Positions 27,590 to 46,246 of a stretch of 63,675 bases of DNA are shown in pieces. This DNA comes from a virus: IMG/VR virus record IMGVR_UViG_3300031963_000137, positions 1 through 63,675 of that record. One strand, 5' to 3'. The notes under the pieces were generated by a model. It had not been told where the DNA came from and ran no database searches. It saw nothing but the letters and a program-made list of their open reading frames with translations. Made by a program: the position numbers and the translations under genes. Position 1 is the first letter of the stretch. The number at the start of each line of letters is the position of its first letter.

Positions 27590-27616
27590 TACTATTAGGA
27601 CACTTTACGGGGCCCA
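27590..27616 (-). repeat. Intercistronic element, copy 1
   Basis: Minus strand GGGCC-CCGT-AAAGTGTCC-TA (core 27598-27615), between the 48-aa gene and the NYETWN gene. The tail reads TAATAGTATG. Confidence 0.85.
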
Positions 27617-27619
27617 GTA

Positions 27620-27766
27620 TTAGTCACTCACCCTACTTTGAATATCACTGAGAATCTCAGCTATCACCTCTACGCTATCCCTATCGTTCTGCTCTAGTTG
27701 TTGCATAACGTCTTGCAGTTGTGGTAGGATACTGATGACTAGTTGCGGCACCCTGATAATACTCAT
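27620..27766 (-). CDS. Small helical protein, 48 aa
   Basis: MSIIRVPQLVISILPQLQDV, then a Gln/Asp-rich helix (MQQLEQNDRDSVEVIAEILS). Amphipathic throughout, no membrane span. Its stop codon is 4 nt from the first intercistronic element. A late-like TAAATA lies 57 nt upstream inside a hairpin loop. Confidence 0.7.
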   Translation of the reverse strand: MSIIRVPQLVISILPQLQDVMQQLEQNDRDSVEVIAEILSDIQSRVSD

Positions 27767-27799
27767 TTCACCCAAATTCTTATACTTTAGTGGTCTCAT

Positions 27800-27851
27800 A
27801 GTTTTGTTAACATAACTGGGGGTATTTAGGGGGGGTTATGTTAACAAAACT
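27800..27851. repeat. 17-bp perfect inverted repeat with 18-nt loop
   Basis: Arms 27800-27816 and 27835-27851 (AGTTTTGTTAACATAAC and its complement) pair without mismatch. The loop, read on the minus strand, is C-rich with TAAATA in the middle. No other such structure is seen in the window. Confidence 0.9.
27823..27829 (-). promoter_or_regulatory. Late-promoter-like CTAAATA in hairpin loop
   Basis: CTAAATACCCCCA on the minus strand, inside the loop of the 17-bp inverted repeat. A similar ATAAATACCCCCA occurs at 28106. Confidence 0.4.
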
Positions 27852-27863
27852 CACATCACTAAA

Positions 27864-28037
27864 TCACCACTTATCAGGACGGCTGAGGTCTTCCACGTAT
27901 GCCGAAACCTTCTCAGCTGGTTCCAATTTGAATACCTTCTCCCACTCTAATTGATGAGGGTCGAAGTCCTCAAAGACTTCAAGTTCCAGAGTGACCCTAT
28001 AACGCTGCTTCTGGGCTTGACGATATGCAACCGACAT
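27864..28037 (-). CDS. Conserved small protein, 57 aa
   Basis: MSVAYRQAQKQRYRVTLELE, then EDFDPHQLEWEKVF and a C-terminal SAYVEDLSRPDKW. I recall near-identical layouts as a conserved small protein of marine cyanophages. Soluble, beta-strand followed by acidic loops; function unknown. A late-type box lies 69 nt upstream. Confidence 0.78.
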   Translation of the reverse strand: MSVAYRQAQKQRYRVTLELEVFEDFDPHQLEWEKVFKLEPAEKVSAYVEDLSRPDKW

Positions 28038-28105
28038 AAGTGTGCTCCGTGAGTGTTACTGAGGACAGTATAAGATGCTGAGGGCATTGTGTCAAGGTCT
28101 GGGGG

Positions 28106-28113
28106 TATTTATG
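28106..28113 (-). promoter_or_regulatory. Late-type promoter box (CATAAATA)
   Basis: CATAAATACCCCCAG on the minus strand, 69 nt upstream of the 57-residue gene; shares the C-run with the box at 27823. Confidence 0.5.
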
Positions 28114-28385
28114 AGGGGGTTTATATGTGGCGGAGGATGTGTGGGGATTTGATGACGCGGGGGTGCTTGACATTTCTGGGAGTTTGTGATAGCTTGCGCG
28201 CAAAGATAACAAGACTCTGAGGCATTTAAAGGGCATTAAAAGGGTCTCTAATTGATACGAATTCTTATCATTATCACCTCTTAATAACAATAATTATCGC
28301 ACAAATAAATCACTCAGCTATAATTAAAAAAGGCTTTTTCAAACGTTTTAATACATTTTTGACACTAAATCACGTTTTTAGGCAT

Positions 28386-28411
28386 AAAAAAAGACCTCAC
28401 GAATGAGGTCT
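28386..28411 (-). terminator. Strong rho-independent terminator
   Basis: Minus strand: 8-bp stem AGACCTCA/TGAGGTCT, 4-nt loop TTCG, then a T-run. It lies 11 nt after the last gene of the small-gene array and probably ends the long leftward transcript. Confidence 0.92.
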
Positions 28412-28421
28412 CTATGTATAT

Positions 28422-28658
28422 TCAATCAAGTGCTAATCGGTAACGAGCATAATCCTCTGCATCGCTACGTTTGCGGAATCGTGCTTCTTCTCCTTCAAAT
28501 CGTAGAGGCAAATACCTATACTTCTTACCTTCCTTAGTCATAACAATTCGGGAGAATAGGTGCAGTGAGTAACTACCATCCTCACTTCTTTCCTTCTCTT
28601 TCTTGACAATGAAAGGGAGAACTTGTTGATCGTTGAATGACTGTTTAGAGAGTAACAT
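28422..28658 (-). CDS. Hypothetical protein, 78 aa
   Basis: Basic and Arg-rich (RFEGEEARFRKRSDAEDYAR), beginning MLLSKQSFNDQQVLPFIVKK. The last ~35 residues look like a beta-strand plus a helix that aligns sequence display (ending in YRLALD). Last gene before the terminator. No family recognised. Confidence 0.75.
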   Translation of the reverse strand: MLLSKQSFNDQQVLPFIVKKEKERSEDGSYSLHLFSRIVMTKEGKKYRYLPLRFEGEEARFRKRSDAEDYARYRLALD

Positions 28659-28672
28659 GACGGAATTGATTA

Positions 28673-28858
28673 TCAGAAACGAATGATAAGTTGATCTAGA
28701 CCAAAGACATCAGAATCATATGGAGCAGACACTAACTCTACACCTGACTGATAATACATTGGCAAATCATCAAATCCAGAATCACAAATGACGACATCTT
28801 GATTGAGTTGATCTTCGGTGAGAGATTGCAGTTGTGAGAGAAGTTCTTTGTAAGTCAT
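28673..28858 (-). CDS. Hypothetical acidic protein, 61 aa
   Basis: MTYKELLSQLQSLTEDQLNQ then DVVICDSGFDDLPMYY and a C-terminal LDQLIIRF. The pattern (short helix, then strands with Asp) resembles many small cyanophage proteins that begin MT-x-x-E-L. The ATG overlaps the preceding stop. Confidence 0.75.
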   Translation of the reverse strand: MTYKELLSQLQSLTEDQLNQDVVICDSGFDDLPMYYQSGVELVSAPYDSDVFGLDQLIIRF

Positions 28859-29037
28859 TTGGTATAATCAATAATGAGTTGTTCGAGTGTATGAAGCGTC
28901 TTTACATTCCAGTTCTTAATATCACCATGAGGAGCATACAGTTTGCTATACCATCGACCATAAAGTTCAGGATTTAGATGTTGAACTTTCTCTAGAGTGT
29001 CAGCAATGAGAAAGTCAATTTGTTCTTGGTAATTCAC
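28855..29037 (-). CDS. Hypothetical protein, 60 aa (GTG start)
   Basis: NYQEQIDFLIADTLEKVQHL after a GTG start that overlaps the upstream TGA (GTGA). Helical N-half, then YAPHGDIKNWNVKTLH. Coupled to the genes on both sides by 4-nt overlaps. Function unknown. Confidence 0.72.
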   Translation of the reverse strand: MNYQEQIDFLIADTLEKVQHLNPELYGRWYSKLYAPHGDIKNWNVKTLHTLEQLIIDYTK

Positions 29038-29165
29038 TGTACTAATTCAGCAGGACTTCCACAGGAGAGATAGAATTGAACCATCCTTTGTGCTTCATCA
29101 AGTGTAGGAAAGCTTTGCGTTCTCCATTGTTGTTGATAAGGCGTAAAGTATCGGATTGTGAACAT
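29034..29165 (-). CDS. Hypothetical protein, 43 aa
   Basis: MFTIRYFTPYQQQWRTQSFP, then a helix (TLDEAQRMVQFYLS). It overlaps the next gene by GTGA. The fold suggested is a strand-helix pair as in many short phage proteins; no function known. Confidence 0.68.
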   Translation of the reverse strand: MFTIRYFTPYQQQWRTQSFPTLDEAQRMVQFYLSCGSPAELVQ

Positions 29166-29166
29166 T

Positions 29167-29343
29167 TTAGTTTTGATTGTTGGAATAAAGAATGTCTAGC
29201 ATTTGTTGGTAGTAGTTATCTGCTTCTACCTCACATTGATGAGACTGAGTTGCATCTTCAATCTCATATTGTTTCATATTAAGAGAGTGAATCACGTTGT
29301 CTAGAAGATTAGTCAGTGCTTCAATCTTTTGTTCGTTAGTCAT
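29167..29343 (-). CDS. Hypothetical protein, 58 aa
   Basis: Start at MTNEQKIEALTNLLDNVIHS (29343), because it forms TAATG with the upstream stop; the ORF extends 4 codons further. Mostly helical and acidic. Ends YSNNQN. Unknown function. Confidence 0.72.
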   Translation of the reverse strand: MTNEQKIEALTNLLDNVIHSLNMKQYEIEDATQSHQCEVEADNYYQQMLDILYSNNQN

Positions 29344-29498
29344 TACAAACACCAATCAGCTCCTTCGGGATCGAATAACGTCCAGTTGCTAATATCTTGT
29401 GGGATGATATTATCTCGGGCAAAATCTCTTGCTTCTTGTTCAGTCTCAAACTCGTGAAAGTCGAGAATGTCATCATCGTTTTGGAGAAGATAAGACAT
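29343..29498 (-). CDS. Hypothetical acidic protein, 51 aa
   Basis: MSYLLQNDDDILDFHEFETE, then EARDFARDNIIPQDISNW. Very acidic, no membrane segment. Overlaps the downstream start by one base, and its ATG is adjacent to the upstream stop. Unknown. Confidence 0.72.
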   Translation of the reverse strand: MSYLLQNDDDILDFHEFETEQEARDFARDNIIPQDISNWTLFDPEGADWCL

Positions 29499-29815
29499 CA
29501 CTTAAGCACCATACCTTCAGTGAAAGGAATTGTGTTGTCATTATCTACAACAAACCATTCAAAGTCACGTTGAAAGATACGGGCATCATTTCCGTGAACT
29601 TTCAGAATAGCATTGAGACGTGATTTGGTGGTAGGAGTCTTATACCCACAGGTGTAAAGTTCAAGGAAGGTATCACCAATCGTTGCAATATGATTGCCAT
29701 GAAGCATAACATATGAAGCATCACGTTCGGGCGAATAAGTTACCTCCGTGTTGTCATTTTTCCAGTCAGTGCAATCACAGATTGCTTTGTTCATTTGGGA
29801 TTCGATCTTTCTCAT
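29498..29815 (-). CDS. Hypothetical protein, 105 aa
   Basis: Start taken at MRKIESQMNKAICDCTDWKN (29815), 20 nt after an intercistronic element; the same frame stays open through the element, which is judged non-coding. Beta-rich, with RLNAILKVHGNDARIFQRD near the middle. No domain recognised. Confidence 0.72.
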   Translation of the reverse strand: MRKIESQMNKAICDCTDWKNDNTEVTYSPERDASYVMLHGNHIATIGDTFLELYTCGYKTPTTKSRLNAILKVHGNDARIFQRDFEWFVVDNDNTIPFTEGMVLK

Positions 29816-29835
29816 GGTAGGAAGTGTTGTGGTTA

Positions 29836-29862
29836 TACTACTAGGACACTTTGGGTGGCCCA
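29836..29862 (-). repeat. Intercistronic element, copy 2
   Basis: GGGCC-ACCC-AAAGTGTCC-TAGTA on the minus strand (core 29844-29861), followed by TATAACCACAACAC before the start at 29815. Confidence 0.88.
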
Positions 29863-29873
29863 CTATTTGTTAC

Positions 29874-30128
29874 TCAGAACTTTTCGATCCATTGTTGAAT
29901 CTTTTGCAGTGCAGTTTGTTGATCGTTACACTTACACTTGCGGAACTTGGTAGTGTTTAATCCCTTGGAAATTAGTTCCAGTTTGCCATCAGCAAGACAG
30001 AAGATTCCATAGCGTGAGTTATGAAAAATGTTGTTAATCCATGACTCTTGACTATCAGCACTGACCTTAATAAAAGTGGAATTGCGCCCACTTAAAGTGC
30101 TATTGTCGATGTGAAGATAAGGGAACAT
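29874..30128 (-). CDS. Hypothetical protein, 84 aa
   Basis: MFPYLHIDNSTLSGRNSTFI, then RYGIFCLADGKLELIS and a helical basic end with CKCNDQQTALQKIQQW. Soluble. It stops just before element copy 2. Function unknown. Confidence 0.72.
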   Translation of the reverse strand: MFPYLHIDNSTLSGRNSTFIKVSADSQESWINNIFHNSRYGIFCLADGKLELISKGLNTTKFRKCKCNDQQTALQKIQQWIEKF

Positions 30129-30132
30129 AATT

Positions 30133-30315
30133 TCAGAGAGAGAATACTTTATATGTCACAAGTTGGGAATCTCGATCATACTTTTCATAGGACCAAGTAC
30201 CTTCGGTTTGTTCAACATAAGAGTGAACATTGTCATTGGAATCTTCTTTCCAAAAGGCACCAGTTTCAGGTTGGAAGAAATAACCAGAAGCGATAAGTGC
30301 GTCAGTGAATGTCAT
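30133..30315 (-). CDS. Small protein of the MTFT-ALIASGY family
   Basis: Start at MTFTDALIASGYFFQPETGA (30315), chosen because it aligns with the paralog at 32491 (MMTFTEALIASGYVF). Aromatic and acidic after the first 20 residues. About 60 residues, no membrane span. Function unknown. Confidence 0.75.
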   Translation of the reverse strand: MTFTDALIASGYFFQPETGAFWKEDSNDNVHSYVEQTEGTWSYEKYDRDSQLVTYKVFSL

Positions 30316-30342
30316 TGTGATTTCAGTGTTAAGTAACAATAA

Positions 30343-30549
30343 TCAGGCAGCGATTGCAGACTCTAGACATACCTCACGGGTTTCCATGATAGCATAATCA
30401 AAACCCTCAACTTCTTCTAGGTGCTTTTGATAAGCAACAGCAGCAGAGAAACAATCAAACAAGCGGAGAGATTTGAAGTTTTCACCTTCATAATCATAAC
30501 CACCGATTACAGCGTAGACTTTCATTTCGGACATTTGGGAAGCGTTCAT
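30343..30549 (-). CDS. Hypothetical protein, 68 aa
   Basis: The ATG at 30549 is part of the intercistronic element (TAGTATGA). A later ATG at 30525 would give MKVYAVIGGYDYEG, which matches other small proteins here (44542, 31737), so the true start is uncertain. The rest contains FDCFSAAVAYQKHLEEVEGF. Unknown. Confidence 0.72.
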   Translation of the reverse strand: MNASQMSEMKVYAVIGGYDYEGENFKSLRLFDCFSAAVAYQKHLEEVEGFDYAIMETREVCLESAIAA

Positions 30550-30575
30550 ACTACTAGGACACTTTGGGTGGCCCA
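30549..30575 (-). repeat. Intercistronic element, copy 3
   Basis: Core 30557-30574, GGGCC-ACCC-AAAGTGTCC on the minus strand, running directly into ATG 30549. Confidence 0.88.
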
Positions 30576-30594
30576 GTGTTTATCATCATCAATA

Positions 30595-30750
30595 TCAAGA
30601 CTTTTTATAATCTCGATTCATTGCAGCAACTTGATAGGATGAACGTGCCACAATTTCATTCCTAGAAGTGTGTTGAGATTGTGCGCGATGATTATATCCT
30701 ACCCACACAAAACCTTGTGTTTTAAGGTCACATGCAACATTGTAAATCAT
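30595..30750 (-). CDS. Hypothetical protein, 51 aa
   Basis: Start taken at MIYNVACDLKTQGFVWVGYN (30750), just after the upstream stop at 30755; a longer ATG at 30783 would overlap by 29 nt. Basic, with RAQSQHTSRNEIVARSSY. Ends before element copy 3. Unknown. Confidence 0.65.
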   Translation of the reverse strand: MIYNVACDLKTQGFVWVGYNHRAQSQHTSRNEIVARSSYQVAAMNRDYKKS

Positions 30751-30754
30751 GAGA

Positions 30755-30982: not shown

Positions 30983-31006
30983 TTGCATTTGATAGTATTT
31001 GGCAAT

Positions 31007-31174: not shown

Positions 31175-31197
31175 TTTGGGAAGTCTGTAAGGGGTTA

Positions 31198-31224
31198 TAC
31201 TACTAGGACACTTTGGGTGGCCCA
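31198..31224 (-). repeat. Intercistronic element, copy 4
   Basis: Core 31206-31223 on the minus strand. The repeat extends to 31240 into the 3' end of the upstream gene, matching copy 7 over 45 nt with one difference. Confidence 0.88.
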
Positions 31225-31371
31225 CTAATCATTTGAAACTAAAATCGTCGGACCTTCAACTTGACAAAACTCCAACAGATAGTAATCAATAGTGATTCCA
31301 AGTTGTGATGCTTCAGTATAAAACTGTTGATATTGTTGACCGTCAAGAATAAAGAAATCAGTTTCAATCAT
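31225..31371 (-). CDS. Hypothetical protein, 48 aa
   Basis: Start at MIETDFFILDGQQYQQFYTE (31371). The stop codon TAG touches element copy 4, and its last codons (VSND) lie in a stretch shared with copy 7. Acidic, ends QVEGPTILVSND. Unknown. Confidence 0.68.
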   Translation of the reverse strand: MIETDFFILDGQQYQQFYTEASQLGITIDYYLLEFCQVEGPTILVSND

Positions 31372-31752: not shown

Positions 31753-31983
31753 TCAGTCGAAGCGAGAGGATACATCAGGACCAGGATTCTCAAGGTGTGC
31801 AACACTATCAGCAACACCTTCAGCAGTTAGTGCAAATTGTACTTTTTTGCCTTCGTGATAGATGTCAAAGACAGATTGGACGTAAGGTGTTAGGTTGCCT
31901 TGCGAATCCCAGGCATTTCGTGTATGCGAAGTCTCAACGATTTCGTAGACTTTAGAGGTGAGAGGTGAAGTGTAGGTCATCAT
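31753..31983 (-). CDS. Hypothetical protein, 76 aa
   Basis: The ATG at 31983 is the end of an intercistronic element (GTATGATGAC); a second ATG follows at 31980. Then TYTSPLTSKVYEIVETSHTR and a C-terminal half with KKVQFALTAEGVADSV. Soluble. Unknown. Confidence 0.72.
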   Translation of the reverse strand: MMTYTSPLTSKVYEIVETSHTRNAWDSQGNLTPYVQSVFDIYHEGKKVQFALTAEGVADSVAHLENPGPDVSSRFD

Positions 31984-32009
31984 ACTACTAGGACACTTTG
32001 GGGGGCCCA
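31983..32009 (-). repeat. Intercistronic element, copy 5
   Basis: Core 31991-32008: GGGCC-CCCC-AAAGTGTCC. The element abuts the ATG at 31983. Confidence 0.88.
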
Positions 32010-32240
32010 CTATTTGTTTCGGGTGGATTCAGTTGTTACACTCTCCACCAATTCTTGCAGTTCATCGTCATCATAATAGTGCGACAGTTCTTCCATCAAT
32101 TCACTCTCTTTATAGTCAATCATACTATCACAAATTGTGTCAATCGCAAATGCACACAAATCGCGCACATCCATATTGTCAACAACTCGCTCAGCATAGA
32201 GTTGAACGATCTTGGAAAGTTGGTCTTGAGAAAGTGTCAT
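32010..32240 (-). CDS. Hypothetical acidic protein, 76 aa
   Basis: Start at MTLSQDQLSKIVQLYAERVV (32240); the ORF reaches 32270 but that extension lies over the upstream gene. Mostly helical, acidic (MIDYKESELMEELSHYYDDD). From memory, helical acidic proteins of this layout recur in cyanophages. Function unknown. Confidence 0.75.
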   Translation of the reverse strand: MTLSQDQLSKIVQLYAERVVDNMDVRDLCAFAIDTICDSMIDYKESELMEELSHYYDDDELQELVESVTTESTRNK

Positions 32241-32768: not shown

Positions 32769-32770
32769 AT

Positions 32771-32956
32771 TCAATCAACGACAGAGTAACAAGCAACCCA
32801 GGAAGGAATCCCAGAGAGTGATAACGAACCATTGCGGGCATCGCAATAGTCTTGTGCGTCATCTTCAGTGTAGAAAGGTCCAATATACTCGGGAGAATTG
32901 AGTGCATTGGAATCGAAGCGAACTGTGAATGTTTCAGTCATTGTGGTTTGTCTCAT
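32771..32956 (-). CDS. Hypothetical protein, 61 aa
   Basis: ATG 32956 abuts the intercistronic element; a start at 32941 (MTETFTVRFDSNALNSPEY) is also possible. Then YTEDDAQDYCDARNGSL and PSWVACYSVVD. A small alpha-beta protein by look, unknown. Confidence 0.72.
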   Translation of the reverse strand: MRQTTMTETFTVRFDSNALNSPEYIGPFYTEDDAQDYCDARNGSLSLSGIPSWVACYSVVD

Positions 32957-32982
32957 ACTACTAGGACACTTTGCAGGGCCCA
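32956..32982 (-). repeat. Intercistronic element, copy 6
   Basis: Core 32964-32981: GGGCC-CTGC-AAAGTGTCC, adjoining the ATG at 32956. Confidence 0.88.
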
Positions 32983-32989
32983 GTGTTTA

Positions 32990-33316: not shown

Positions 33317-33342
33317 TTAGTGGTTTTTCGTTTGAGTCCTTA

Positions 33343-33369
33343 TACTACTAGGACACTTTAGGTGGCCCA
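33343..33369 (-). repeat. Intercistronic element, copy 7
   Basis: Core 33351-33368: GGGCC-ACCT-AAAGTGTCC. Matches copy 4 over 45 nt, including 16 nt that lie in the upstream gene's 3' end. Confidence 0.88.
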
Positions 33370-33373
33370 CTAA

Positions 33374-34243: not shown

Positions 34244-34491
34244 CAGTAGTGTGCCTCAGAGTAGTCAAGAACTTCGCTGTACTTAGCGATACCATCATAG
34301 CAACGCTTTGCCATTTCAGAATCACCTTCAGCGATGTAACCTTTCAGAAACTCAAAGCAGTATTTGATACGCTGCTCTGGAGTAACTTTAGCGAGTTGTT
34401 GTTGCTTACGCTCATAGGCAGCGTTGTAGGCAAACATCTCACGATCTTCGAGGGAGATGTTGTGAAACTTGCGGTCGGTAGTGTTATTCAT
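34243..34491 (-). CDS. Hypothetical protein, 82 aa
   Basis: ATG 34491 abuts an intercistronic element. Starts MNNTTDRKFHNISLEDREMF, helical, with AYNAAYERKQQQLAKVTPEQ and YIAEGDSEMAKRCYDGIAKY. Tetratricopeptide-like helices by eye, but no repeat is convincing. Unknown. Confidence 0.72.
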   Translation of the reverse strand: MNNTTDRKFHNISLEDREMFAYNAAYERKQQQLAKVTPEQRIKYCFEFLKGYIAEGDSEMAKRCYDGIAKYSEVLDYSEAHY

Positions 34492-34517
34492 ACTACTAGG
34501 ACACTTTGCAGGGCCCA
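34491..34517 (-). repeat. Intercistronic element, copy 8
   Basis: Core 34499-34516: GGGCC-CTGC-AAAGTGTCC, running into ATG 34491. Confidence 0.88.
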
Positions 34518-34524
34518 CTATTTG

Positions 34525-35354: not shown

Positions 35355-35789
35355 TCACTTAGCGTAGAGATAACCACCAGACCAATCGGCATTCTCCAGC
35401 AGATATTCACGATCTTTGATCAATCGCAGATCATAACGAACACCTTTGGCAGGAGATTTCCAAGTCGCAGACTTATATACTTCGCCAGTGTTCTTGTCAA
35501 TGAAGCAATGAACGGAGCGGGAACCGCCACCACTCACAAAGATGACTTTGTGATACTTTTTACCAGTCTCAACAGTATAATCAATGTCACACTTGCCAGA
35601 CTTGAGTTCATCAACCTTGCGAATGTGATACTCTACATTCTCACCACGCTCAGCAGAAGTCTGATGACCGCGAATAGAATACTGACGATAGTTGTCTTTC
35701 AGTGCTTCAATCAGCAGGAGAGTGTGCTTATACACATTCTCTGCGATGGTTTGTTTTGCTTGTGCTTGCATTTCAGTGGTTGTACTCAT
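35355..35789 (-). CDS. Hypothetical protein, 144 aa
   Basis: ATG 35789 abuts an intercistronic element. Begins MSTTTEMQAQAKQTIAENVY, with a long helix, then a beta-rich C-half containing HKVIFVSGGGSRSVHCFIDK and KGVRYDLRLIKDREYL. Looks like a soluble enzyme-sized domain but I recognise no family. Confidence 0.75.
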   Translation of the reverse strand: MSTTTEMQAQAKQTIAENVYKHTLLLIEALKDNYRQYSIRGHQTSAERGENVEYHIRKVDELKSGKCDIDYTVETGKKYHKVIFVSGGGSRSVHCFIDKNTGEVYKSATWKSPAKGVRYDLRLIKDREYLLENADWSGGYLYAK

Positions 35790-35815
35790 ACTACTAGGAC
35801 ACTTTGCAGGGCCCA
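35789..35815 (-). repeat. Intercistronic element, copy 9
   Basis: Core 35797-35814: GGGCC-CTGC-AAAGTGTCC, adjoining ATG 35789. Confidence 0.88.
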
Positions 35816-35816
35816 A

Positions 35817-36731
35817 TTACCAACTCTTTGCCATTGTGAAGTTTGCGTGAGAGAATGTCTCGCGATCCACTACTTTGAAGATGCCGTAATCGTTTTTGAT
35901 TACATAACCCTCGTGGAAACTTGCCACATCCCACAGGAAACATTCGATGTCGTCTTCTTCGTGAATGAAGAGGAACAAATCATCCTTGATTGTCTTCACC
36001 AACTTCCAAAGCCGGATGAGGTTCTTGTCACAATCACATTTTTCTGCAATTTCATCCTCACAGATGATACGTTGCTCCCTGATGCAAGCATTGATCTCTT
36101 TTTTGATTTGTGATGCCTTGCGATCACTCACAAACTCACACAGAGTTGACATTTGCTTGGCAAACTTACACACATCTGCCAAATCCTCACGATAAGGATT
36201 CAGGGACACTGCAGGTTGCACGAATAAGCATTTCTTAGTGCTTGCAAACTTGCTGGTGATAGGGTGTGCTACCATTTCAGGCAGACGCTCACCAGTGTAG
36301 TAAGTATGGGGAGCAACGATAATCTCTTGACGAACAACCTCAGGAAACTTATAGGTAATGGTGTTGGGTTTGAATGTATCAAGACCCTTACCGAAACCAA
36401 TCCAATCTCCCTGATACACATTGTTAGTGCGAGGCAGGAAATCCAAGCAATAGATGAGGATTTGCGTTACGCGAGGTTGACCGCCAAAATGGGTAAAGAT
36501 GTCGTCCTCGTTATAGCACAGGCGAATCTTTTGCTTATTAAATGCTGCTTTGGTGCAGACAAAAAACTTACCATTCTCAGGATTAGTGCCCCAAACAATA
36601 GCAGGAGCGCCATCCATCTTGACACTGATAGTAGAATCAGCACTGAACCAATCGAGCACCGAAAGATCACCATTTAGGATAGAATCTTCGGGATGTTCGA
36701 TATGTTTGTTTTGCATTGGTTGCTTACTCAT
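35817..36731 (-). CDS. ATP-dependent ligase-like nucleotidyltransferase
   Basis: 304 residues from ATG 36731, which abuts an intercistronic element. Residues 38-41 are KMDG, the KxDG lysine motif where ligases and capping enzymes form the lysine-AMP adduct (K38). Near the C-terminus EGYVIK (274-279) matches motif IV and FKVV (K286) matches motif V. The order and spacing fit the covalent nucleotidyltransferase superfamily. No OB-fold extension is apparent, so it may be an RNA-ligase-like or minimal DNA-ligase-like enzyme. Substrate unknown; repair of broken nucleic acid is an inference. Confidence 0.65.
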   Translation of the reverse strand: MSKQPMQNKHIEHPEDSILNGDLSVLDWFSADSTISVKMDGAPAIVWGTNPENGKFFVCTKAAFNKQKIRLCYNEDDIFTHFGGQPRVTQILIYCLDFLPRTNNVYQGDWIGFGKGLDTFKPNTITYKFPEVVRQEIIVAPHTYYTGERLPEMVAHPITSKFASTKKCLFVQPAVSLNPYREDLADVCKFAKQMSTLCEFVSDRKASQIKKEINACIREQRIICEDEIAEKCDCDKNLIRLWKLVKTIKDDLFLFIHEEDDIECFLWDVASFHEGYVIKNDYGIFKVVDRETFSHANFTMAKSW

Positions 36732-36757
36732 ACTACTAGGACACTTTGCAGGGCCCA
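36731..36757 (-). repeat. Intercistronic element, copy 10
   Basis: Core 36739-36756: GGGCC-CTGC-AAAGTGTCC, directly before the ligase-like gene start. Confidence 0.88.
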
Positions 36758-36760
36758 GAA

Positions 36761-37022: not shown

Positions 37023-37032
37023 GTGCTAATTA

Positions 37033-37275: not shown

Positions 37276-37292
37276 GAAATGAATGCGTCTTA

Positions 37293-37319
37293 CATTACTA
37301 GGACACTTTACAGGGCCCA
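37293..37319 (-). repeat. Intercistronic element, copy 11
   Basis: Core 37301-37318: GGGCC-CTGT-AAAGTGTCC followed by TAGTAATG; lies 3 nt before the stop of the methyltransferase-like gene. Confidence 0.86.
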
Positions 37320-37321
37320 CT

Positions 37322-39000: not shown

Positions 39001-39017
39001 GAATTGAGTTGTGCTTA

Positions 39018-39044
39018 TATTATTGGGACAATTTAAAGGGCCCA
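39018..39044 (-). repeat. Intercistronic element, copy 12 (divergent)
   Basis: Core 39026-39043: GGGCC-CTTT-AAATTGTCC then CAATA. Two core positions differ from the others (AAAG->AAAT, TGTCCT->TGTCCC). Precedes the nuclease-like gene. Confidence 0.8.
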
Positions 39045-39047
39045 CTA

Positions 39048-39227
39048 TCAGTCAATGGGAAGTTTTGCCACACTTTTACCATTCTTGTGATCTGTGATAT
39101 ACTTTCGTGCAGAACTTTCAGTCCTACAAAGTTTCTCAAGTTGCTGACCGTTGTGGATAATAAGATACTGCTTCCCATAAGGAATAGCAGCATATGTATC
39201 CTTAAACATCGTAAATCCTTCTTTCAT
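39048..39227 (-). CDS. Hypothetical basic protein, 59 aa
   Basis: MKEGFTMFKDTYAAIPYGKQ then YLIIHNGQQLEKLCRTESSA. Overlaps the upstream 176-aa gene by ATGA. Basic C-terminus (KNGKSVAKL). Unknown; sits between the nuclease-like and the 176-aa protein. Confidence 0.68.
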   Translation of the reverse strand: MKEGFTMFKDTYAAIPYGKQYLIIHNGQQLEKLCRTESSARKYITDHKNGKSVAKLPID

Positions 39228-39754
39228 ACAAGAAACCTCTTTTCATATTCCAGCAAATCAGATGGTGCAGGAATAATGTTGTCATCACATTCTACAGCAT
39301 TTTCCCATCTTGCACCACTCTTTTGATATAGTTTGATATTAAGATGCTGGTACTTTAGGTTAGTTGGAACGTGTACTTTATAGTCAATTCCATCATTCTC
39401 AGTCAGCAAGCTAAGTTGCTTATTCTCACTCTTAGTCACTGTAATTGTGGAGCAAGATAACCAGAACAGATTCTCAAAAACATCATAATCTGATAGGTAT
39501 TTGTCTGGGTTATCCATAATCATTCGACCAATGAATTGAGGTGACAAACAATGGTCGTGAGTGCGCTCTTTTGGATTATTCTTTGCTTCCTCACTTATCA
39601 ATCCAAGATGATTCACTTGAGCGCAATCAAATACACCAATGTAGTAAATGCGTGTGATAGGTCGGAAGAAATCAGGGTCGCCCCAGTTGTCTACATTAGC
39701 ACTCAAAGAGTTGAATGTAGTCTGACAGTAGGCTTTCCAGTTCTTGGAGTTCAT
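39224..39754 (-). CDS. Hypothetical protein, 176 aa
   Basis: MNSKNWKAYCQTTFNSLSAN; the middle has DVFENLFWLSCSTITVTK and the C-half TNLKYQHLNIKLYQKSGARW. Soluble, no catalytic motif seen. Its start adjoins copy B of the 115-bp repeat. Being coupled to the nuclease-methylase cluster it might be an accessory factor, but that is only positional. Confidence 0.7.
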   Translation of the reverse strand: MNSKNWKAYCQTTFNSLSANVDNWGDPDFFRPITRIYYIGVFDCAQVNHLGLISEEAKNNPKERTHDHCLSPQFIGRMIMDNPDKYLSDYDVFENLFWLSCSTITVTKSENKQLSLLTENDGIDYKVHVPTNLKYQHLNIKLYQKSGARWENAVECDDNIIPAPSDLLEYEKRFLV

Positions 39755-39870: not shown

Positions 39871-41112
39871 CCGCCTCACCACCGATACGGCAGGTTCTCC
39901 CTTCTCGAAGATGGTATCAACCACAGACTGAACTGCGCGAGCGGTGCTGATACCAACCTTGCTGTAGACAGGAATGCAAACCAGACCGAACGATTTGCTA
40001 TACTGACTCAGGTTGCCAGGTTCGATACGTCCTTCGCGCATAGCTTTGGCATCATCGTGATGCAAACGGATGCAACGTCCGATGGTCTGACTGATGCCAA
40101 TGAAGTCCATATTACGCAGGAACAGCACTGCTTCCAGACCGCTCACATTGATACCCTCAGCAAGGATACTGTGGTGAAGAACAACAAACTTCTTATCGTT
40201 ATCCTTACCCCATGCAGATAGAGTGTCGAAGAATACCTCACGGTTGACCTTCTGACCGTCAATAACTGCGCCAGTCTTGGCAGTAATATACATCCAAGAG
40301 TATCCGCGACATTCCAGTTGGAAACAGAAATCAGTTTCAGTCACCAGCGATACGATTTGCTTGGTTGCCTTAGCACAAATCAGAATCTTGCCGACCTTGT
40401 TCTCATCAATCGTTTCCAGCAGATTCTCAGAATCGCGGTCGAAGTTGGTCTGCTTACCAGTTACCATAGCCAGTTGCTTGACGATGACTTTGGGGGGCAC
40501 AATGTAACCACCTTCAACCAACTCAGGAGCAGGAACTTTGCAGATTACCTGACCGTAAACATCAGCATCATTCATCCCAGGTTTGCCAGTAGCAAGGGAA
40601 TGTTTGGGAGTTGCAGTGAAGAAATAGCAGCGGCGAGCAGTAGCAGCAAAGTGCTCTGTTGCAGGGAAAAAGTGACGCTGAACGCTGTTATGTGCCTCAT
40701 CAAAGTAAATAGTATCCACATCAACTTCTGCCACTTGCAGACGCGACAGAGAGTTGTAGGTAGTTACAATCAAGCGATGGCTATCAGCATTGGCATCAAC
40801 CCAGTTACGAATCTCACGGGGGCGAGTAGAGGATTCGTGATGAGTTTCGCCACTGTGAACGTGCAAAACTTTAGCGTTGGTGATGAACTCCAGGAACTCG
40901 CTAGAGAGTTGCTCTGCCAACAAAATACGAGGAGCAACAACAACAATGGTCTGGGGAGTTTCAGACTGCAACTCACGCAGAGCATCATAGATCATCTTGA
41001 GAGTCTTGCCACCGCCAGTAGGAACAATGATCTGACCTTTATCATGCTGTTGCATAGCAGCAACACCACGTTCTTGATGCGGACGAAGTTGGATTTGCAT
41101 TGGTTTCATCAT
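39868..41112 (-). CDS. Superfamily 2 DEAH helicase
   Basis: 414 residues. Motif I is PTGGGKT (31-37), motif II DEAH (138-141), motif III TATP (166-169), and motif VI QTIGRCIR near residue 345. N-terminal QLRPHQERGVAAMQQ is the Q-motif-like start of UvsW/RecG-type SF2 enzymes. It lacks the ~100-residue N-terminal domain of T4 UvsW, so it is a helicase core only. Expected to unwind or translocate on nucleic acid with ATP. Element copy 13 ends right before ATG 41112. Confidence 0.85.
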   Translation of the reverse strand: MMKPMQIQLRPHQERGVAAMQQHDKGQIIVPTGGGKTLKMIYDALRELQSETPQTIVVVAPRILLAEQLSSEFLEFITNAKVLHVHSGETHHESSTRPREIRNWVDANADSHRLIVTTYNSLSRLQVAEVDVDTIYFDEAHNSVQRHFFPATEHFAATARRCYFFTATPKHSLATGKPGMNDADVYGQVICKVPAPELVEGGYIVPPKVIVKQLAMVTGKQTNFDRDSENLLETIDENKVGKILICAKATKQIVSLVTETDFCFQLECRGYSWMYITAKTGAVIDGQKVNREVFFDTLSAWGKDNDKKFVVLHHSILAEGINVSGLEAVLFLRNMDFIGISQTIGRCIRLHHDDAKAMREGRIEPGNLSQYSKSFGLVCIPVYSKVGISTARAVQSVVDTIFEKGEPAVSVVRR

Positions 41113-41113
41113 C

Positions 41114-41140
41114 TAGTATTAGGACACTTTGCAGGGCCCA
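41114..41140 (-). repeat. Intercistronic element, copy 13
   Basis: Core 41122-41139: GGGCC-CTGC-AAAGTGTCC then TAATACTAG and ATGATG of the helicase gene. Confidence 0.86.
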
Positions 41141-41143
41141 GTA

Positions 41144-41344
41144 TCAGTTACAAACTTTTTTATAGCAGTTCAGTCTATCAATTACACCTTGCATTGTAGC
41201 ACGATTGTAACCATTTGCAAAGGGTAGACTTCTCTCAGTTTCAGGATTAGAACCAAAATCAACATTTTGGGAGACATTAACACCCTCTTGAAGAAGGCGA
41301 ATGACATCATCAAAGACAAAATCAGGGATTTGAATGTAATTCAT
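41144..41344 (-). CDS. Hypothetical protein, 66 aa
   Basis: Start at MNYIQIPDFVFDDVIRLLQE (41344), downstream of the terminator. Then RSLPFANGYNRATMQGVIDR. Mixed alpha-beta, acidic start. The stop lies 4 nt before element copy 13. Unknown. Confidence 0.72.
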   Translation of the reverse strand: MNYIQIPDFVFDDVIRLLQEGVNVSQNVDFGSNPETERSLPFANGYNRATMQGVIDRLNCYKKVCN

Positions 41345-41576: not shown

Positions 41577-41600
41577 AATGTCGTTTGAGTGTTGTCCTTA

Positions 41601-41627
41601 TACTACTAGGACACTTTAGAGGGCCCA
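41601..41627 (-). repeat. Intercistronic element, copy 14
   Basis: Core 41609-41626: GGGCC-CTCT-AAAGTGTCC followed by TAGTATAAG. Confidence 0.86.
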
Positions 41628-41637
41628 GTATTTGTTA

Positions 41638-42508: not shown

Positions 42509-42641
42509 AGTAGTCGATGTTTGATTTAAGATATTCATTCATATTGAAATCTTTTACATCTTCAACAAGATCAGAAAGATCTTCGTCAATGAAGTCGAAG
42601 TTTTCAAGTTCCTCAATTTGAATGTCGTCGAACCAGTCCAT
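42507..42641 (-). CDS. Small acidic protein, 44 aa
   Basis: MDWFDDIQIEELENFDFIDE with LSDLVEDVKDFNMNEYL: about one residue in three is Asp or Glu. It follows element copy 15 after 16 nt. A DNA-mimic role is conceivable but unproven. Confidence 0.65.
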   Translation of the reverse strand: MDWFDDIQIEELENFDFIDEDLSDLVEDVKDFNMNEYLKSNIDY

Positions 42642-42657
42642 AGTGTGTGGGTGATTA

Positions 42658-42684
42658 CATTATTAGGACACTTTACAGGGCCCA
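42658..42684 (-). repeat. Intercistronic element, copy 15
   Basis: Core 42666-42683: GGGCC-CTGT-AAAGTGTCC, then TAATAATGT. Confidence 0.86.
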
Positions 42685-42690
42685 ATAATA

Positions 42691-43338: not shown

Positions 43339-43357
43339 CTTACTTATACTTTTTGAT

Positions 43358-43365
43358 TATTTATT
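43358..43365 (-). promoter_or_regulatory. Late-type promoter box (AATAAATA)
   Basis: AATAAATAATCAAAAAGTA on the minus strand, 20 nt before the 215-aa gene; overall similar to the box at 42243. Confidence 0.55.
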
Positions 43366-43366
43366 T

Positions 43367-43633
43367 TTACTCAAACTCAAGAGTTCTATTTGATACTTTC
43401 ATAGGTGGAGTTTTATATTCTGGAAGTGTAGAAGTTTCAACGTATACTTCTATCTTAGTCTCATCATTCCAATGACGGATTGCATTTGCCACAATGAAAC
43501 AGTTGGTAATGAGAATGGATAGAAACATCAAAAGGCGGATAAGAGCAATCTTATCCGCTTCTTTATCACATTTACTTGCTTTTTCACCCAATGCTTTAGC
43601 AAGCAGTCGCCAGACAGTTTTGTTCTTCTTCAT
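43367..43633 (-). CDS. Small membrane protein, 88 aa
   Basis: Start at MKKNKTVWRLLAKALGEKAS (43633), inside the upstream gene's end by 38 nt. One hydrophobic span (IRLLMFLSILITNCFIVANA), N-terminus basic. A perfect 10-bp hairpin (43535-43558) lies within it. Function unknown. Confidence 0.7.
   Translation of the reverse strand: MKKNKTVWRLLAKALGEKASKCDKEADKIALIRLLMFLSILITNCFIVANAIRHWNDETKIEVYVETSTLPEYKTPPMKVSNRTLEFE
43535..43558. repeat. 10-bp inverted repeat with T-run inside a gene
   Basis: GCGGATAAGA/TCTTATCCGC, 4-nt loop, followed on the minus strand by CTTTTG. It looks like a terminator but lies in the coding sequence of the 88-aa protein. Confidence 0.8.
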
Positions 43634-43859
43634 AGACCGATTCTCTTGATTTAACATACTCCAACTGTTTCCATTGATTATTATAGCAAATTACAAGCAA
43701 TCTTTCATTTGCGTGAATAGAGCAGGCGCGATAATTGAGTTCATCTTTAGGCCGAACACTATATTCAATAGTAATGTATTCTTCGCACTTGAAATAAACC
43801 CAGCCCTCAACACCTTTAGTCCATTTTACATAGTCGTTGACTCTTGGAGTGTAATCCAT
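43596..43859 (-). CDS. Hypothetical protein, 87 aa
   Basis: MDYTPRVNDYVKWTKGVEGW is the start, followed by strands (VYFKCEEYITIEYSVRPKDE) with several Cys. It ends with CLATAC. An SH3-like or KOW-like small fold is possible from the pattern, but no match is firm. Confidence 0.7.
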   Translation of the reverse strand: MDYTPRVNDYVKWTKGVEGWVYFKCEEYITIEYSVRPKDELNYRACSIHANERLLVICYNNQWKQLEYVKSRESVYEEEQNCLATAC

Positions 43860-43861
43860 AT

Positions 43862-44152
43862 CTAAACAAAAAACGCATCCAATGGAGATTGCTTAAGTGG
43901 CATCGCAGTATAATTCCGCGTATCCTTGATATTTACACGAGCACCGATGGACTTACTATTGATGGGGGAGAAGTATTCTCTGGTTTTGGTATTGTAGAAG
44001 GAGTGTATAGTCCTGGTTGGAGCACCGCCATTATAGACAAACTTGCGAGTGTTGCATAACCAAATACTGACAACATTTCGCTTGAAGTCTTCACATTCAT
44101 AATAGTATCCTTCTGGAGGAGAATATGGAAGAGGTGGAACTTCAACAGTCAT
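43862..44152 (-). CDS. Hypothetical protein, 96 aa
   Basis: Start at MTVEVPPLPYSPPEGYYYEC (44152). Beta-rich with SIWLCNTRKFVYNGGAPTRT and SPINSKSIGARVNIKD. Followed by the next gene after 2 nt. Unknown. Confidence 0.7.
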   Translation of the reverse strand: MTVEVPPLPYSPPEGYYYECEDFKRNVVSIWLCNTRKFVYNGGAPTRTIHSFYNTKTREYFSPINSKSIGARVNIKDTRNYTAMPLKQSPLDAFFV

Positions 44153-44309
44153 AGAACTTATCTTGCGACATATACTCAATTTGTTTTTGTAGTTGTGAGA
44201 TTTCTTGTTCCTGTTCTTTAATTTTCTTTTCCAAATGATCTATTCGTTTCTGATACTGTTCCTTGAGATCAAACAACATTTTATTTGTGTGAGAAACGTG
44301 GTTAGTCAT
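44142..44309 (-). CDS. Coiled-coil protein, 55 aa
   Basis: MTNHVSHTNKMLFDLKEQYQ followed by a Lys/Glu heptad helix (HLEKKIKEQEQEISQLQKQI). Presumably an oligomerising peptide. Overlaps the next gene by 11 nt. Unknown partner. Confidence 0.72.
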   Translation of the reverse strand: MTNHVSHTNKMLFDLKEQYQKRIDHLEKKIKEQEQEISQLQKQIEYMSQDKFYDC

Positions 44310-44311
44310 AA

Positions 44312-44542
44312 TCAAGTCGTGAAATGTTCAACAATACGGGATTCTTCGTCATCCACAAGTGCAAAACGAGGAGCAGCAACTACACGCTCCATAATTTTAC
44401 TTTCGTATCGGTCATCATAATCATCTGAGTCTCGTAGAATATCGTGGCACTCAATATCATTTTCAGCAATAACATTGATTACTCCACCATACTCAGAAGA
44501 AGGAAAAGGAACCCAGTAGTCAACAATATACAGATACTTCAT
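44312..44542 (-). CDS. Small protein, MK-x-Y family, 76 aa
   Basis: MKYLYIVDYWVPFPSSEYGG then VINVIAENDIECHDILRDSD. Similar in layout to genes 31737 and 34243. Acidic. Unknown. Confidence 0.75.
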   Translation of the reverse strand: MKYLYIVDYWVPFPSSEYGGVINVIAENDIECHDILRDSDDYDDRYESKIMERVVAAPRFALVDDEESRIVEHFTT

Positions 44543-44568
44543 TTGTTTTTGTAAATTACCTCTTGAGT

Positions 44569-44667
44569 TTAGAACTGTTTGTTTTCTTTGTCAATATCAT
44601 TGGCAACTATAAGAGAAACTCCTACAGTCAAAAGGATACCAACTCCCATACCAAGAATAAAAGTCAT
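44569..44667 (-). CDS. Membrane mini-protein, 32 aa
   Basis: MTFILGMGVGILLTVGVSLI then VANDIDKENKQF: a single transmembrane span with an acidic tail. One of a run of mini membrane genes at 44.5-45.8 kb. Confidence 0.62.
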   Translation of the reverse strand: MTFILGMGVGILLTVGVSLIVANDIDKENKQF

Positions 44668-44804
44668 CAATAAAATTCAGCAAGATAGTAGTCAACAGGA
44701 ACTTCAAGTTTAGCCGCTTCGCGCTCAACTTCTTTCCAGAACTCTTCTGCTACTTTGCACATTTCTGCCCGTTTAATGAGGTCTCGGATGTTTTTAGGAA
44801 TCAT
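44667..44804 (-). CDS. Small helical protein, 45 aa
   Basis: MIPKNIRDLIKRAEMCKVAE, then EFWKEVEREAAKLEV. Amphipathic helix. Overlaps neighbours by 1-4 nt. Unknown. Confidence 0.68.
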   Translation of the reverse strand: MIPKNIRDLIKRAEMCKVAEEFWKEVEREAAKLEVPVDYYLAEFY

Positions 44805-44926
44805 TTAGACTTCTCCTTGAGTTGATTTTCTTCGCGTGGATACATTACCTTATAGTAATATATCATAATGGACGATACAAATGCAACAAGTGCAGTGTAA
44901 ATTGTAAACGCAAGTCCGATACTCAT
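44801..44926 (-). CDS. Membrane mini-protein, 41 aa
   Basis: MSIGLAFTIYTALVAFVSSI with a span to about residue 25, then a charged tail (YPREENQLKEKSK). N-out or C-in orientation likely. Unknown. Confidence 0.68.
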   Translation of the reverse strand: MSIGLAFTIYTALVAFVSSIMIYYYKVMYPREENQLKEKSK

Positions 44927-45057
44927 TTCATTTGTTGAGTTGCTTGTTGGCGATAGTGCGATTTATAGAGAACACTATCGCGTTGAATTAGAAACACATT
45001 CCAACCAAGAATGACTGCAAAACCAATCAATCCCGTGACAATGTACTTTTTATTCAT
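44923..45057 (-). CDS. Membrane mini-protein, 44 aa
   Basis: MNKKYIVTGLIGFAVILGWN: span from residue ~6 to 24, then a polar tail (DSVLYKSHYRQQATQQMK). A 9-bp inverted repeat (44950-44981) lies in it. Unknown. Confidence 0.68.
   Translation of the reverse strand: MNKKYIVTGLIGFAVILGWNVFLIQRDSVLYKSHYRQQATQQMK
44950..44981. repeat. 9-bp inverted repeat in a coding region
   Basis: GCGATAGTG/CACTATCGC with a 14-nt loop inside the 44-aa gene. No T-run follows. Confidence 0.55.
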
Positions 45058-45461
45058 TTATTCATTTGAAGTGTAGGAACAGGCATACCACCTTCGGTAG
45101 GAACATAGATGGTAACATTACCATTCTTTGCGCCATCTTCGATACCAGTGATATACAGGTACTGCAGATACTCACGGTTATCTTTCAGTGAATCACCAAT
45201 AATCTGGTTTGCTTTGGCAACACCACCAGCGCGAATAATCTCTGCTTCAGCAAGTTGTTGTGCAGAATCTTTCTTTGCTTGTGCTTCAAGCACTGCTACC
45301 TGGCGAGTGTATTCTGCTTTTTGCAATTCTGCTTTACCAGCAAGAGATTGTTGCCACACATTGTATTGGGGACCACCAATAAAGATGATACCACCAATCA
45401 CAACGACACCGATAGCAAGGAGAGCAACACCAGGGTCAATAAATCCGTTTTGTTGTTTCAT
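45054..45461 (-). CDS. Membrane-anchored prohibitin/SPFH-tail-like protein
   Basis: 135 residues. N-terminal anchor (DPGVALLAIGVVVIGGIIFI), then a Lys/Ala/Gln helix (KAELQKAEYTRQVAVLEAQA, AEAEIIRAGGVAKANQIIGD) and a polar C-terminus. This helix resembles the tail after the SPFH domain of prohibitins and stomatins. The SPFH domain itself is missing. Possibly part of a membrane scaffold. Confidence 0.6.
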   Translation of the reverse strand: MKQQNGFIDPGVALLAIGVVVIGGIIFIGGPQYNVWQQSLAGKAELQKAEYTRQVAVLEAQAKKDSAQQLAEAEIIRAGGVAKANQIIGDSLKDNREYLQYLYITGIEDGAKNGNVTIYVPTEGGMPVPTLQMNK

Positions 45462-45571
45462 TTTTGTTCAAACTCCTTTACAATTTCATTAATTCGTTTG
45501 TTGGACTGATAATTACGGATAATATCCATAATACAATATCCAAAGGCAAATCCTGCCATAATTTCAATCAT
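45458..45571 (-). CDS. Membrane mini-protein, 37 aa
   Basis: MIEIMAGFAFGYCIMDIIRN, then YQSNKRINEIVKEFEQK. A short hydrophobic start, basic-acidic tail. Coupled to the neighbouring SPFH-tail-like gene. Unknown. Confidence 0.65.
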   Translation of the reverse strand: MIEIMAGFAFGYCIMDIIRNYQSNKRINEIVKEFEQK

Positions 45572-45759
45572 TTAGAAGAAACTCCAGTATCTTTAAAAAT
45601 CAGATTAGCAAGAGCAATGATAGCAAAGTTCTGCCAGAAGGTCAAAGACACGTTGAACCAAGACAGAATGAGTCCAAGTAACCACGCTTCAAAGAAAAGT
45701 CCAGCAGTAGCAAGGACAATAACAACAAAGACAGCAGCAAGAGTAGTAGAAGTTTTCAT
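45568..45759 (-). CDS. Small membrane protein, 63 aa
   Basis: MKTSTTLAAVFVVIVLATAG then LFFEAWLLGLILSWFNVSLT: two hydrophobic spans. Holin-sized, but there is no other support for a lysis role. Unknown. Confidence 0.7.
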   Translation of the reverse strand: MKTSTTLAAVFVVIVLATAGLFFEAWLLGLILSWFNVSLTFWQNFAIIALANLIFKDTGVSSK

Positions 45760-45762
45760 AGG

Positions 45763-46203
45763 TCAAACGTGAAGAGCAGCAGAGGGGATTTCAACAACTT
45801 CGGGAAGTTTGCTTTCTACATAACAGTTCATATTATAGCACACCCATTCACCATTGCGGAAGACATAGTGATACTCTTCACCATTAGCAGGAAGAAGATA
45901 CTCACAAAGGTCAGCATCAAGGCGAGGAGGGCAATTTTCACCGCGCTGAGAGTAGTATTGGGGCCCATATTTTTGAGAACCAACTCCTTTCACACCAGGA
46001 ATAATTTCTTCATTAGTCCAACATTCTTCGGACCAGCAAGAACTCATATCACCACCATCAATCAGTTCGGCAACTTGTTGACGAGTGTTGTAATGAGTCT
46101 TCAGAATACGACCCAACCATTCGGGATACGAATCCCAATGGTGGTACACAGAGAGAATAGAACCGTTTTTGAGTTCAAGACCGATGCGACCCCGAGTTGA
46201 CAT
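45763..46203 (-). CDS. Hypothetical protein, 146 aa
   Basis: MSTRGRIGLELKNGSILSVY and HHWDSYPEWLGRILKTHYNT; then Cys-containing part (CWSEECWTNEEIIPG). From memory a common phage protein of unknown function with a HHWDG-type motif. It starts 16 nt after element copy 16. Confidence 0.8.
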   Translation of the reverse strand: MSTRGRIGLELKNGSILSVYHHWDSYPEWLGRILKTHYNTRQQVAELIDGGDMSSCWSEECWTNEEIIPGVKGVGSQKYGPQYYSQRGENCPPRLDADLCEYLLPANGEEYHYVFRNGEWVCYNMNCYVESKLPEVVEIPSAALHV

Positions 46204-46219
46204 TTAAGTGATGTGCTTA

Positions 46220-46246
46220 CATTACTAGGACACTTTCAGGGGCCCA
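46220..46246 (-). repeat. Intercistronic element, copy 16 (rightmost)
   Basis: Core 46228-46245: GGGCC-CCTG-AAAGTGTCC, then TAGTAATGT. No copy occurs to the right of this point. Confidence 0.86.

Follow-up and report, generated by a model that had tools for sequence, protein, structure and literature searches.

T4-like cyanophages are abundant. The middle promoters of T4, built of a MotA box and a -10 box and associated with AsiA, repeat a phage-specific box upstream of the start, and T7-like polymerase promoters occur in many near-identical copies per phage, differ between lineages and are conserved past +1. Doron et al. in 2016 (ISME J) reportedly described a novel element for early genes in Syn9. 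The pertinent section of Sullivan et al. 2010 describes a search of cyanophage genomes for sigma-70, T4 late, Pho and NtcA promoters (PMC3037559), and a halovirus report gives, in the part that concerns HF2, short intergenic repeats conserved among relatives, nine of which were reporter-tested and all of which had promoter activity (PMC8707807). A literature search on the motif strings described below returned no cyanophage paper, and one on cyanophage early-gene inverted-repeat promoters returned the halovirus paper only. Here we analyze the virus record IMGVR_UViG_3300031963_000137, the whole 63.7-kb stretch of which (63,675 nucleotides, nt) we call the window, and which carries 16 copies of a short element headed by the box GGGCC. 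From the copy number, strand and placement of this element, the behavior of its left box, an in-frame ATG at its end, and a start signature and leader length that match those of a second cyanophage promoter class, we infer that the 16 copies are probably early-gene promoters of a T4-like cyanophage, one heading each mini-operon of an early-type cluster (probability roughly 0.68). This reading predicts promoter activity, an exact start, a recognition factor and early timing.

Scanning the whole window with GGGCCNNNNAAAGTGTCCNTA at up to three mismatches gave 16 matches, all on the minus strand (Table 1), compared with a mean of 0.22 and a maximum of 2 in 100 shuffles; all 16 places named in a preliminary description of this DNA were recovered. 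The exact core occurs 15 times on the reverse strand, never on the forward strand and never for a reversed control pattern, and the sixteenth copy, at 39 kb, carries a single core change. Positions are numbered here from the first G of GGGCC as 0, and ATG25 denotes an ATG at position 25. The copies had been said to lie between genes and to face the same way, and this holds for all 16 when the flanks are taken as open frames, not annotated genes: each has on its 5' side a same-strand stop closing an open frame of 38 or more codons, the triplet starting 4-23 nt before the first G, and on its 3' side a same-strand ATG that opens at least 30 codons. The six copies described as running into an ATG do so with at least 30 open codons (30574, 32008, 32981, 34516, 35814 and 36756); the copy at 27615 also reads TAGTATG, with no frame of that length behind its ATG. 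Between 46.3 and 63.7 kb no copy was found at up to three mismatches, as had been noted, and this stretch does hold one strong promoter of the other class, at 56,991.

The element is longer than first described. In full it reads ANTGGGCC-N4-AAAGTGTCC-TAGTAGT-RTRA, and in a set of 181 distinct copies, drawn both from the window and from contigs of viruses, the commonest unit, of about 32 nt, is A-N-T-GGGCC-C-Y-B-B-AAAGTGTCC-Y-A-R-T-A-G-T-R-T-R-A. The flanks are conserved in this set (left A 95%, N, T 97%; right T-A-G-T-R-T-R-A, 79-100% per position), and position 25 is a purine in 181 of 181 copies. The four nucleotides between the two blocks do not vary freely, contrary to the preliminary description; C (92%) or A stands first, a pyrimidine (C or T) follows in all copies but one, and A occurs once in the last two. 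The layout that we call type II, namely a left box, N3, AAAGYGT and TA.TRTRA at fixed distance, is present in the window, where the copy at 39043 departs from it in AAAGYGT and that at 41139 at the right end.

A motif search in related cyanophages, which the preliminary description had suggested, found similarly built elements, differing in the left box, in three named phages. SynMITS9220M01 carries CTCACC-TCT-AAAGTGT-CC-CTATAGTATGA (12 listed) S-SM2 carries GGGGGTCG..AAAGCGT (12 listed), and P-TIM68 carries TTAGTTACCTCTAAATTGA in 13 copies, with none on the other strand; all three have them in the cluster around uvsW. Exact pattern copies were present in 71 stretches of viral contigs, and a search of 20 whole records found the right-half pattern in 10, always confined to a single orientation per record. 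A further scan used only the right half as pattern, leaving the left box free; with loci taken as contig pieces and exact duplicates dropped, it gave at least 365 copies at no fewer than 112 loci. The constancy of the right half is set by this pattern and is no independent result; the behavior of the left box is independent. Among the matches listed, which share the right half, the left five bases agree in 666 of 721 within-locus pairs (92%) versus 5885 of 65,709 between-locus pairs (9%), and 500 shuffles gave at most 103 agreeing within-locus pairs. These matches have at least 19 five-base forms of the box, 12 of them with eight or more copies; GGGGC, GGGAC, CTCAC, GGGCC, GTAAC, GGATC and GGGTC are frequent, and the terminal base is C in 364 of 365. 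Boxes are mixed within contigs L056, L043, L152 and L214. In the window GGGCC stands in all 16 copies, a box that the pattern demanded, and one box per phage is likewise what the 92% within-locus agreement among the matches listed describes. At a single junction, that before the DUF6267 gene, 14 box types occur across 46 copies. On this sequence evidence, the window element is the local form of a family found in the early-type cluster of T4-like cyanophages. Neither element class was seen repeated around uvsW in S-SCSM1, and a short blastn of the module against named phages returned three mycobacteriophage records at an E value of 4 and no cyanophage. In a collection of cellular genomes, the only match to the long pattern was at 1503-1529 (-) of L219, a 4.9-kb contig of a Saprospiraceae metagenome-assembled genome, which may be a phage contig in the bin.

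The proteins recognized in the window are a gp6-like baseplate protein, a helicase and a DUF6267 protein, and for the latter two the best named relatives come from cyanophages such as SynMITS9220M01, S-SM2 and S-SKS1, the first two of which are filed as Kyanoviridae. In SynMITS9220M01, S-SM2, Bellamy and Syn9, the counterpart cluster of small open reading frames (ORFs) around uvsW sits between the tail fibre genes and gp25/gp6; we take this cluster to be expressed early.

The second promoter class, type I, is repeated in nine named phages (Syn9, Bellamy, DSL-LC02, S-SRM01, S-SKS1, ACG-2014f, P-SSM2, S-PM2 and S-T4). It consists of a half-site, AA[CG]TGGCAC or similar and often with an opposite arm 4 nt away, followed by 30-31 nt, TANNNT, 6 nt, RT and a leader of 15-23 nt. 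With the hexamer allowed 18-36 nt past the half-site and no RT condition in the selection, 57 sites were listed; TANNNT lies at 30 or 31 nt in 47 of them, 41 of these 47 (13 of the 41 from ACG-2014f) have R-T at the predicted +1, the seventh base past the hexamer, and leaders measure 15-23 nt in 41 of the 44 sites that have an ATG. The layout scan found no type I site in Sf-CH8, though two of its inverted repeats were seen. Type I sites, as in Syn9, S-PM2, P-SSM2, S-SRM01 and others, may be the Syn9 early element attributed to Doron et al. By inspection, the half-site AAGTGTCC of Syn9 and Bellamy looks like the AAAGTGTCC block. The window site at 56,991 scored 42.1 (best of six shuffles 10.3, training median 43.5) and lies where the window element is absent. 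The pattern A.[CGT]TG[GT]C[AC]C + 30-31 nt + TANNNT + N6 + RT matches the window only at 59723 and 56991 and in none of the 16 copies; the 59,723 match fell below the listing cut-off in the scored scan. Both classes occur in record G006, with several type I sites at 17.5-42.4 kb and window-class copies at 39.0-51.8 kb.

Further type I-like features were noted in passing. Weaker sites lie upstream of 56991, at 62283 and 60990 (-) of the window, with scores of 14.4 and 12.7 (best shuffle of six 10.3). At 37031 (-) of the window, a degenerate type I site is combined with a terminator-like hairpin, which reads AGGAGCACTTGTAATTTAGCAGGTGCTCCTTTATTGT there, and is followed by an ATG; the site is conserved at G001 63966, G003 54019 and G006 42418. 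At 25.4-26.7 kb of DSL-LC02 (L080) there are three half-sites followed by a conserved stretch, ACTAAATCCGCCGA.

The most likely transcription start of the window element is position 25, the purine of TAGT-R, because the start signature matches that of type I, the leader lengths agree and ATG25 is in frame. Positions 25-28 (R-T-R-A) correspond to the type I +1. In P-TIM68, 5 of the 13 copies have GTAATCAAGG at these positions, and six bases past the type I hexamer one reads GTAATCAAGG in S-SRM01, GTAAACAAGG twice in P-SSM2 and in S-SKS1, and GTAGTCAAGG in S-PM2. Among 494 family copies, selected by a pattern that demanded R-T-R-A and not ATG, 271 carry ATG25, and in 248 of these it begins a frame of 40 or more open codons, compared with 0 and 10 in the other two frames. 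The remaining 223 copies have their first open ATG most often 17-18 nt past position 25 (135 of 207 within 13-24 nt; 16 of 223 with none in range), and 93 of them are open in the same frame. Within several of the 44 gene clusters, a further in-frame ATG inside 16 codons is seen in few copies or none. In the mechanism that we propose, a phage-specified factor would read the left box, GGGCC here, at -25 to -21, and would evolve along with all its copies; the family-wide block AAAGTGTCC would occupy -16 to -8, and the A/T-rich TAGTAGT would stand directly before +1, at the start signature RTRA. Copies with ATGA at the start would yield leaderless messenger RNA (mRNA), and the others a leader of about 17-18 nt before the ATG.

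The DUF6267 junction bears most closely on this register. ATG25 is present in 45 of its 46 copies, 30 of which have no second in-frame ATG up to position 60. An upstream hairpin with a T-run, within 75 nt, precedes 13 of the 46; among the 436 copies elsewhere it precedes 5, and in four sets of shifted windows of this junction it was seen in 0 of 45, 42, 44 and 44. In the 12 DUF6267-junction copies of a stricter terminator test the T-run starts 18-23 nt before the box. In five of the 13 terminator-bearing copies ATG25 is the sole start (two of the five in the stricter list are near-identical), so that transcription there should begin between the T-run and the ATG. A different arrangement is seen upstream of uvsW in SynMITS9220M01 (L092 13917), S-SM2 (L093 13904) and L006 (640). 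There the copy is followed by a hairpin (-20.6, -24.6 and -19.1 kcal/mol, respectively, for 75 nt), and no ATG less than 100 nt from the box opens 30 codons; this argues for a role in transcription and against one in translation alone. The hairpin is placed as if a short RNA or an attenuator were encoded there.

Several observations weigh against a promoter starting at position 25. The stricter terminator test over all copies gave 14 of 487 versus 11 of 487 control windows, the enrichment being confined to the DUF6267 junction, and no terminator is visible before the window's own DUF6267 copy. On this register -12 to -7 reads TGTCCY, no known -10 box, whereas TAGTRT (positions 21-26) resembles one and would give a start about 7 nt downstream, excluding ATG25, which could instead be used on read-through mRNA. 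The S-SRM01 site at 13940 reads TATACT-GTAAGC without the 6-nt gap, and another S-SRM01 site reads TATAAT-AAGCACA; both resemble window elements in the downstream register and so support it. Finally, a trans-acting factor was sought by several comparisons and not found.

One rival reading is a promoter of ordinary register, in which TAGTRT would be the -10 box, transcription would start at about 31-34, GGGCC..AAAGTGTCC would stand in for the -35 box as an activator site, as in T4 middle promoters, and ATG25 would serve only on read-through mRNA. A sigma-70 hexamer TANNNT at -12 to -7 is absent if the start is 25, while TAGTRT fits if it is 31-34; in the 181 copies the fit is close (T21 99%, A22 95%, T24 99%, T26 94%), with A31 (75%) and A34 (66%), each after C, as possible starts. 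We nevertheless hold this arrangement to be unlikely, since its commonest leaders would measure 8-12 nt rather than the 15-23 nt of type I, ATG25 is in frame in 248 of 271 copies and is the sole nearby start in many, some of them behind a terminator, and MotA and AsiA were found in 0 of 10 cyanophage records, the window record not among them, with a positive T4 control. TAGTAT as a plain -10 box was our initial favorite and was dropped to a rival after the ATG25, terminator and leader counts; we weight the start at 25 about four times the TAGTRT register. In a third register, N-A-A-A-G-T (positions 8-13) may serve as a poor -10 box, with a start near 20.

An element acting at the RNA level on a polycistronic mRNA, either a processing site or a protein-bound translation start that makes or marks a 5' end at 25, would suit the location of all 16 window copies between a same-strand stop and start and the terminal ATG of 271 family copies. 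It is improbable, however, given that 223 of 494 copies have no ATG at position 25, that the uvsW copies combine a strong hairpin with no open ATG, and that type I, which replaces the element at the DUF6267 junction of S-SRM01, has a TANNNT box. Nor is an RNA structure maintained: the stem GGGC/GUCC proposed earlier can form in all 16 window copies (-2.9 kcal/mol) because the pairing bases never change there, no pair being changed on both sides, and all four pairs form in only 159 of 494 family copies (118 of 150 of GGGCC type). Rfam gave no match to the element at gathering scores, and a structured RNA was rejected on the lack of covariation in the window and the loss of pairing across the family. 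Of the options first offered, a phage-specific promoter is the best supported; a translation start holds in part, as about half of the family copies close with an ATG, nearly always in frame, and a processing site is less likely. In being conserved from +1 through +4 and in having a short recognition region of two parts, the element recalls the promoters of T7-type single-subunit RNA polymerases, and the Syn5 promoter, in the portion of its description that gives the sequence, begins ATTGGGC. This explanation is largely refuted and very improbable: the polymerase family PF00940 was found in 0 of 16 records, several of them fragments and including the near relative G001 and not the window itself (T7 control 9.9e-110), and a Syn5-type promoter was rejected, the Syn5 15-mer matching the window once at 3 mismatches compared with a shuffle mean of 1.04.

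If the copies are promoters starting at position 25, their recognition would be unusual and probably needs a phage-specified factor, because there is no -10 hexamer where host sigma-70 needs one; the uniform left box per phage also suggests such a factor. Homogenization by recombination among copies could give uniform boxes without any factor. Four type II and five type I genomes (Bellamy covered to 200,000 of 204,930 bases) were compared for ORFs of SynMITS9220M01 and S-SM2 that match three or more of the former and no more than one of the latter; among the matches listed, no DNA-binding protein was recognized. Background-corrected divergence that follows the box did not clearly single out any of 69 families (best 12.9, mean 0.3, sd 4.8). 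A 176-amino-acid protein (39224-39754) was an initial outlier, its signal arising from pairs without a match being scored zero and from short spurious ORFs in the family; it was rejected as the factor, members with GAAGC and GTAGC boxes scoring like those with GGGCC. A protein with a MazE-type domain (PF04014) is encoded at 46728-47261 (-), a few hundred bases upstream of the first element copy, and has relatives in G001, G003, G006 and S-SRM01. It too was rejected as the factor, being present in S-SRM01, a type I phage, and weakly in Syn9, and not found in SynMITS9220M01, S-SM2 or P-TIM68. We tentatively suggest, at less than even odds, that the family is a new promoter class, start-proximal and bipartite (-25 box, -16 to -8 block), with no -10 hexamer and leaderless mRNA, that would be used by host RNA polymerase with a phage-specified factor, and whose specificity would have changed many times, a dozen or so copies each time in concert.

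Table 1. Element copies (left box to RTRA) and predicted type I promoter in the window
Feature	Coordinates	Strand	Details
Element copy	27587..27618	-	GGGCC at 27615; ATG25 without long frame
Element copy	29833..29864	-	GGGCC at 29861
Element copy	30546..30577	-	GGGCC at 30574; ends in ATG 30549
Element copy	31195..31226	-	GGGCC at 31223
Element copy	31980..32011	-	GGGCC at 32008; ends in ATG 31983
Element copy	32953..32984	-	GGGCC at 32981; ends in ATG 32956
Element copy	33340..33371	-	GGGCC at 33368
Element copy	34488..34519	-	GGGCC at 34516; ends in ATG 34491
Element copy	35786..35817	-	GGGCC at 35814; ends in ATG 35789
Element copy before DUF6267 gene	36728..36759	-	GGGCC at 36756; ends in ATG 36731
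Element copy	37290..37321	-	GGGCC at 37318
Element copy, one core change (AAATTGTCC)	39015..39046	-	GGGCC at 39043
Element copy before UvsW-like helicase gene	41111..41142	-	GGGCC at 41139; right end departs from RTRA
Element copy	41598..41629	-	GGGCC at 41626
Element copy	42655..42686	-	GGGCC at 42683
Element copy, most upstream	46217..46248	-	GGGCC at 46245
Type I promoter (predicted)	56940..57007	-	GGACACTT-GAAG-AACTGGCAC, 30 nt, TATAAT 56952-56947, 6 nt, predicted +1 56940; next ATG 56921

Two other features were observed near the loci considered here. ARAGORN called a transfer RNA (tRNA) with anticodon tca (selenocysteine type) at 41233-41321 (-), between two element copies; the call may be spurious. 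In S-SRM01 (L095), many copies of ATCTCGACGAG, some in both orientations, lie at 18729-24167 near HNH endonuclease genes and form a separate repeat system.

How host transcription is taken over without MotA and AsiA is a question that this family touches. With one half constant and the other swapped and nearly fixed in each phage, it amounts to a natural experiment on promoter specificity. A matching recognition factor is predicted and becomes findable. The family points to leaderless early mRNAs, and the two classes together would provide a readable map of early operons for phages without transcript data.

Among known systems, the window element resembles T7-like polymerase promoters in its many near-identical copies, its differences between lineages and its conservation past +1, unlike T7-like phages in that no PF00940 polymerase was found in the 16 records. 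With T4 middle promoters it shares a repeated, phage-specific box upstream of the start; the sequence and geometry of the box differ, the MotA and AsiA families were not found in the 10 cyanophage records, and their absence is stated for marine T4-like cyanophages in the relevant part of a published account (PMC5780444). The HF2 repeats are likewise short, conserved and placed between genes; unlike the element, they belong to a virus with an archaeal host, and the passages on HF2 mention no swapped box. The element is most like the early promoters of T4-like cyanophages such as Syn9, occupying the same cluster around uvsW and the same place before gene groups. It differs from type I in having no distal half-site 30-31 nt before a -10 box and in carrying instead a lineage-specific box and AAAGTGTCC near the start, where it often ends in ATG.

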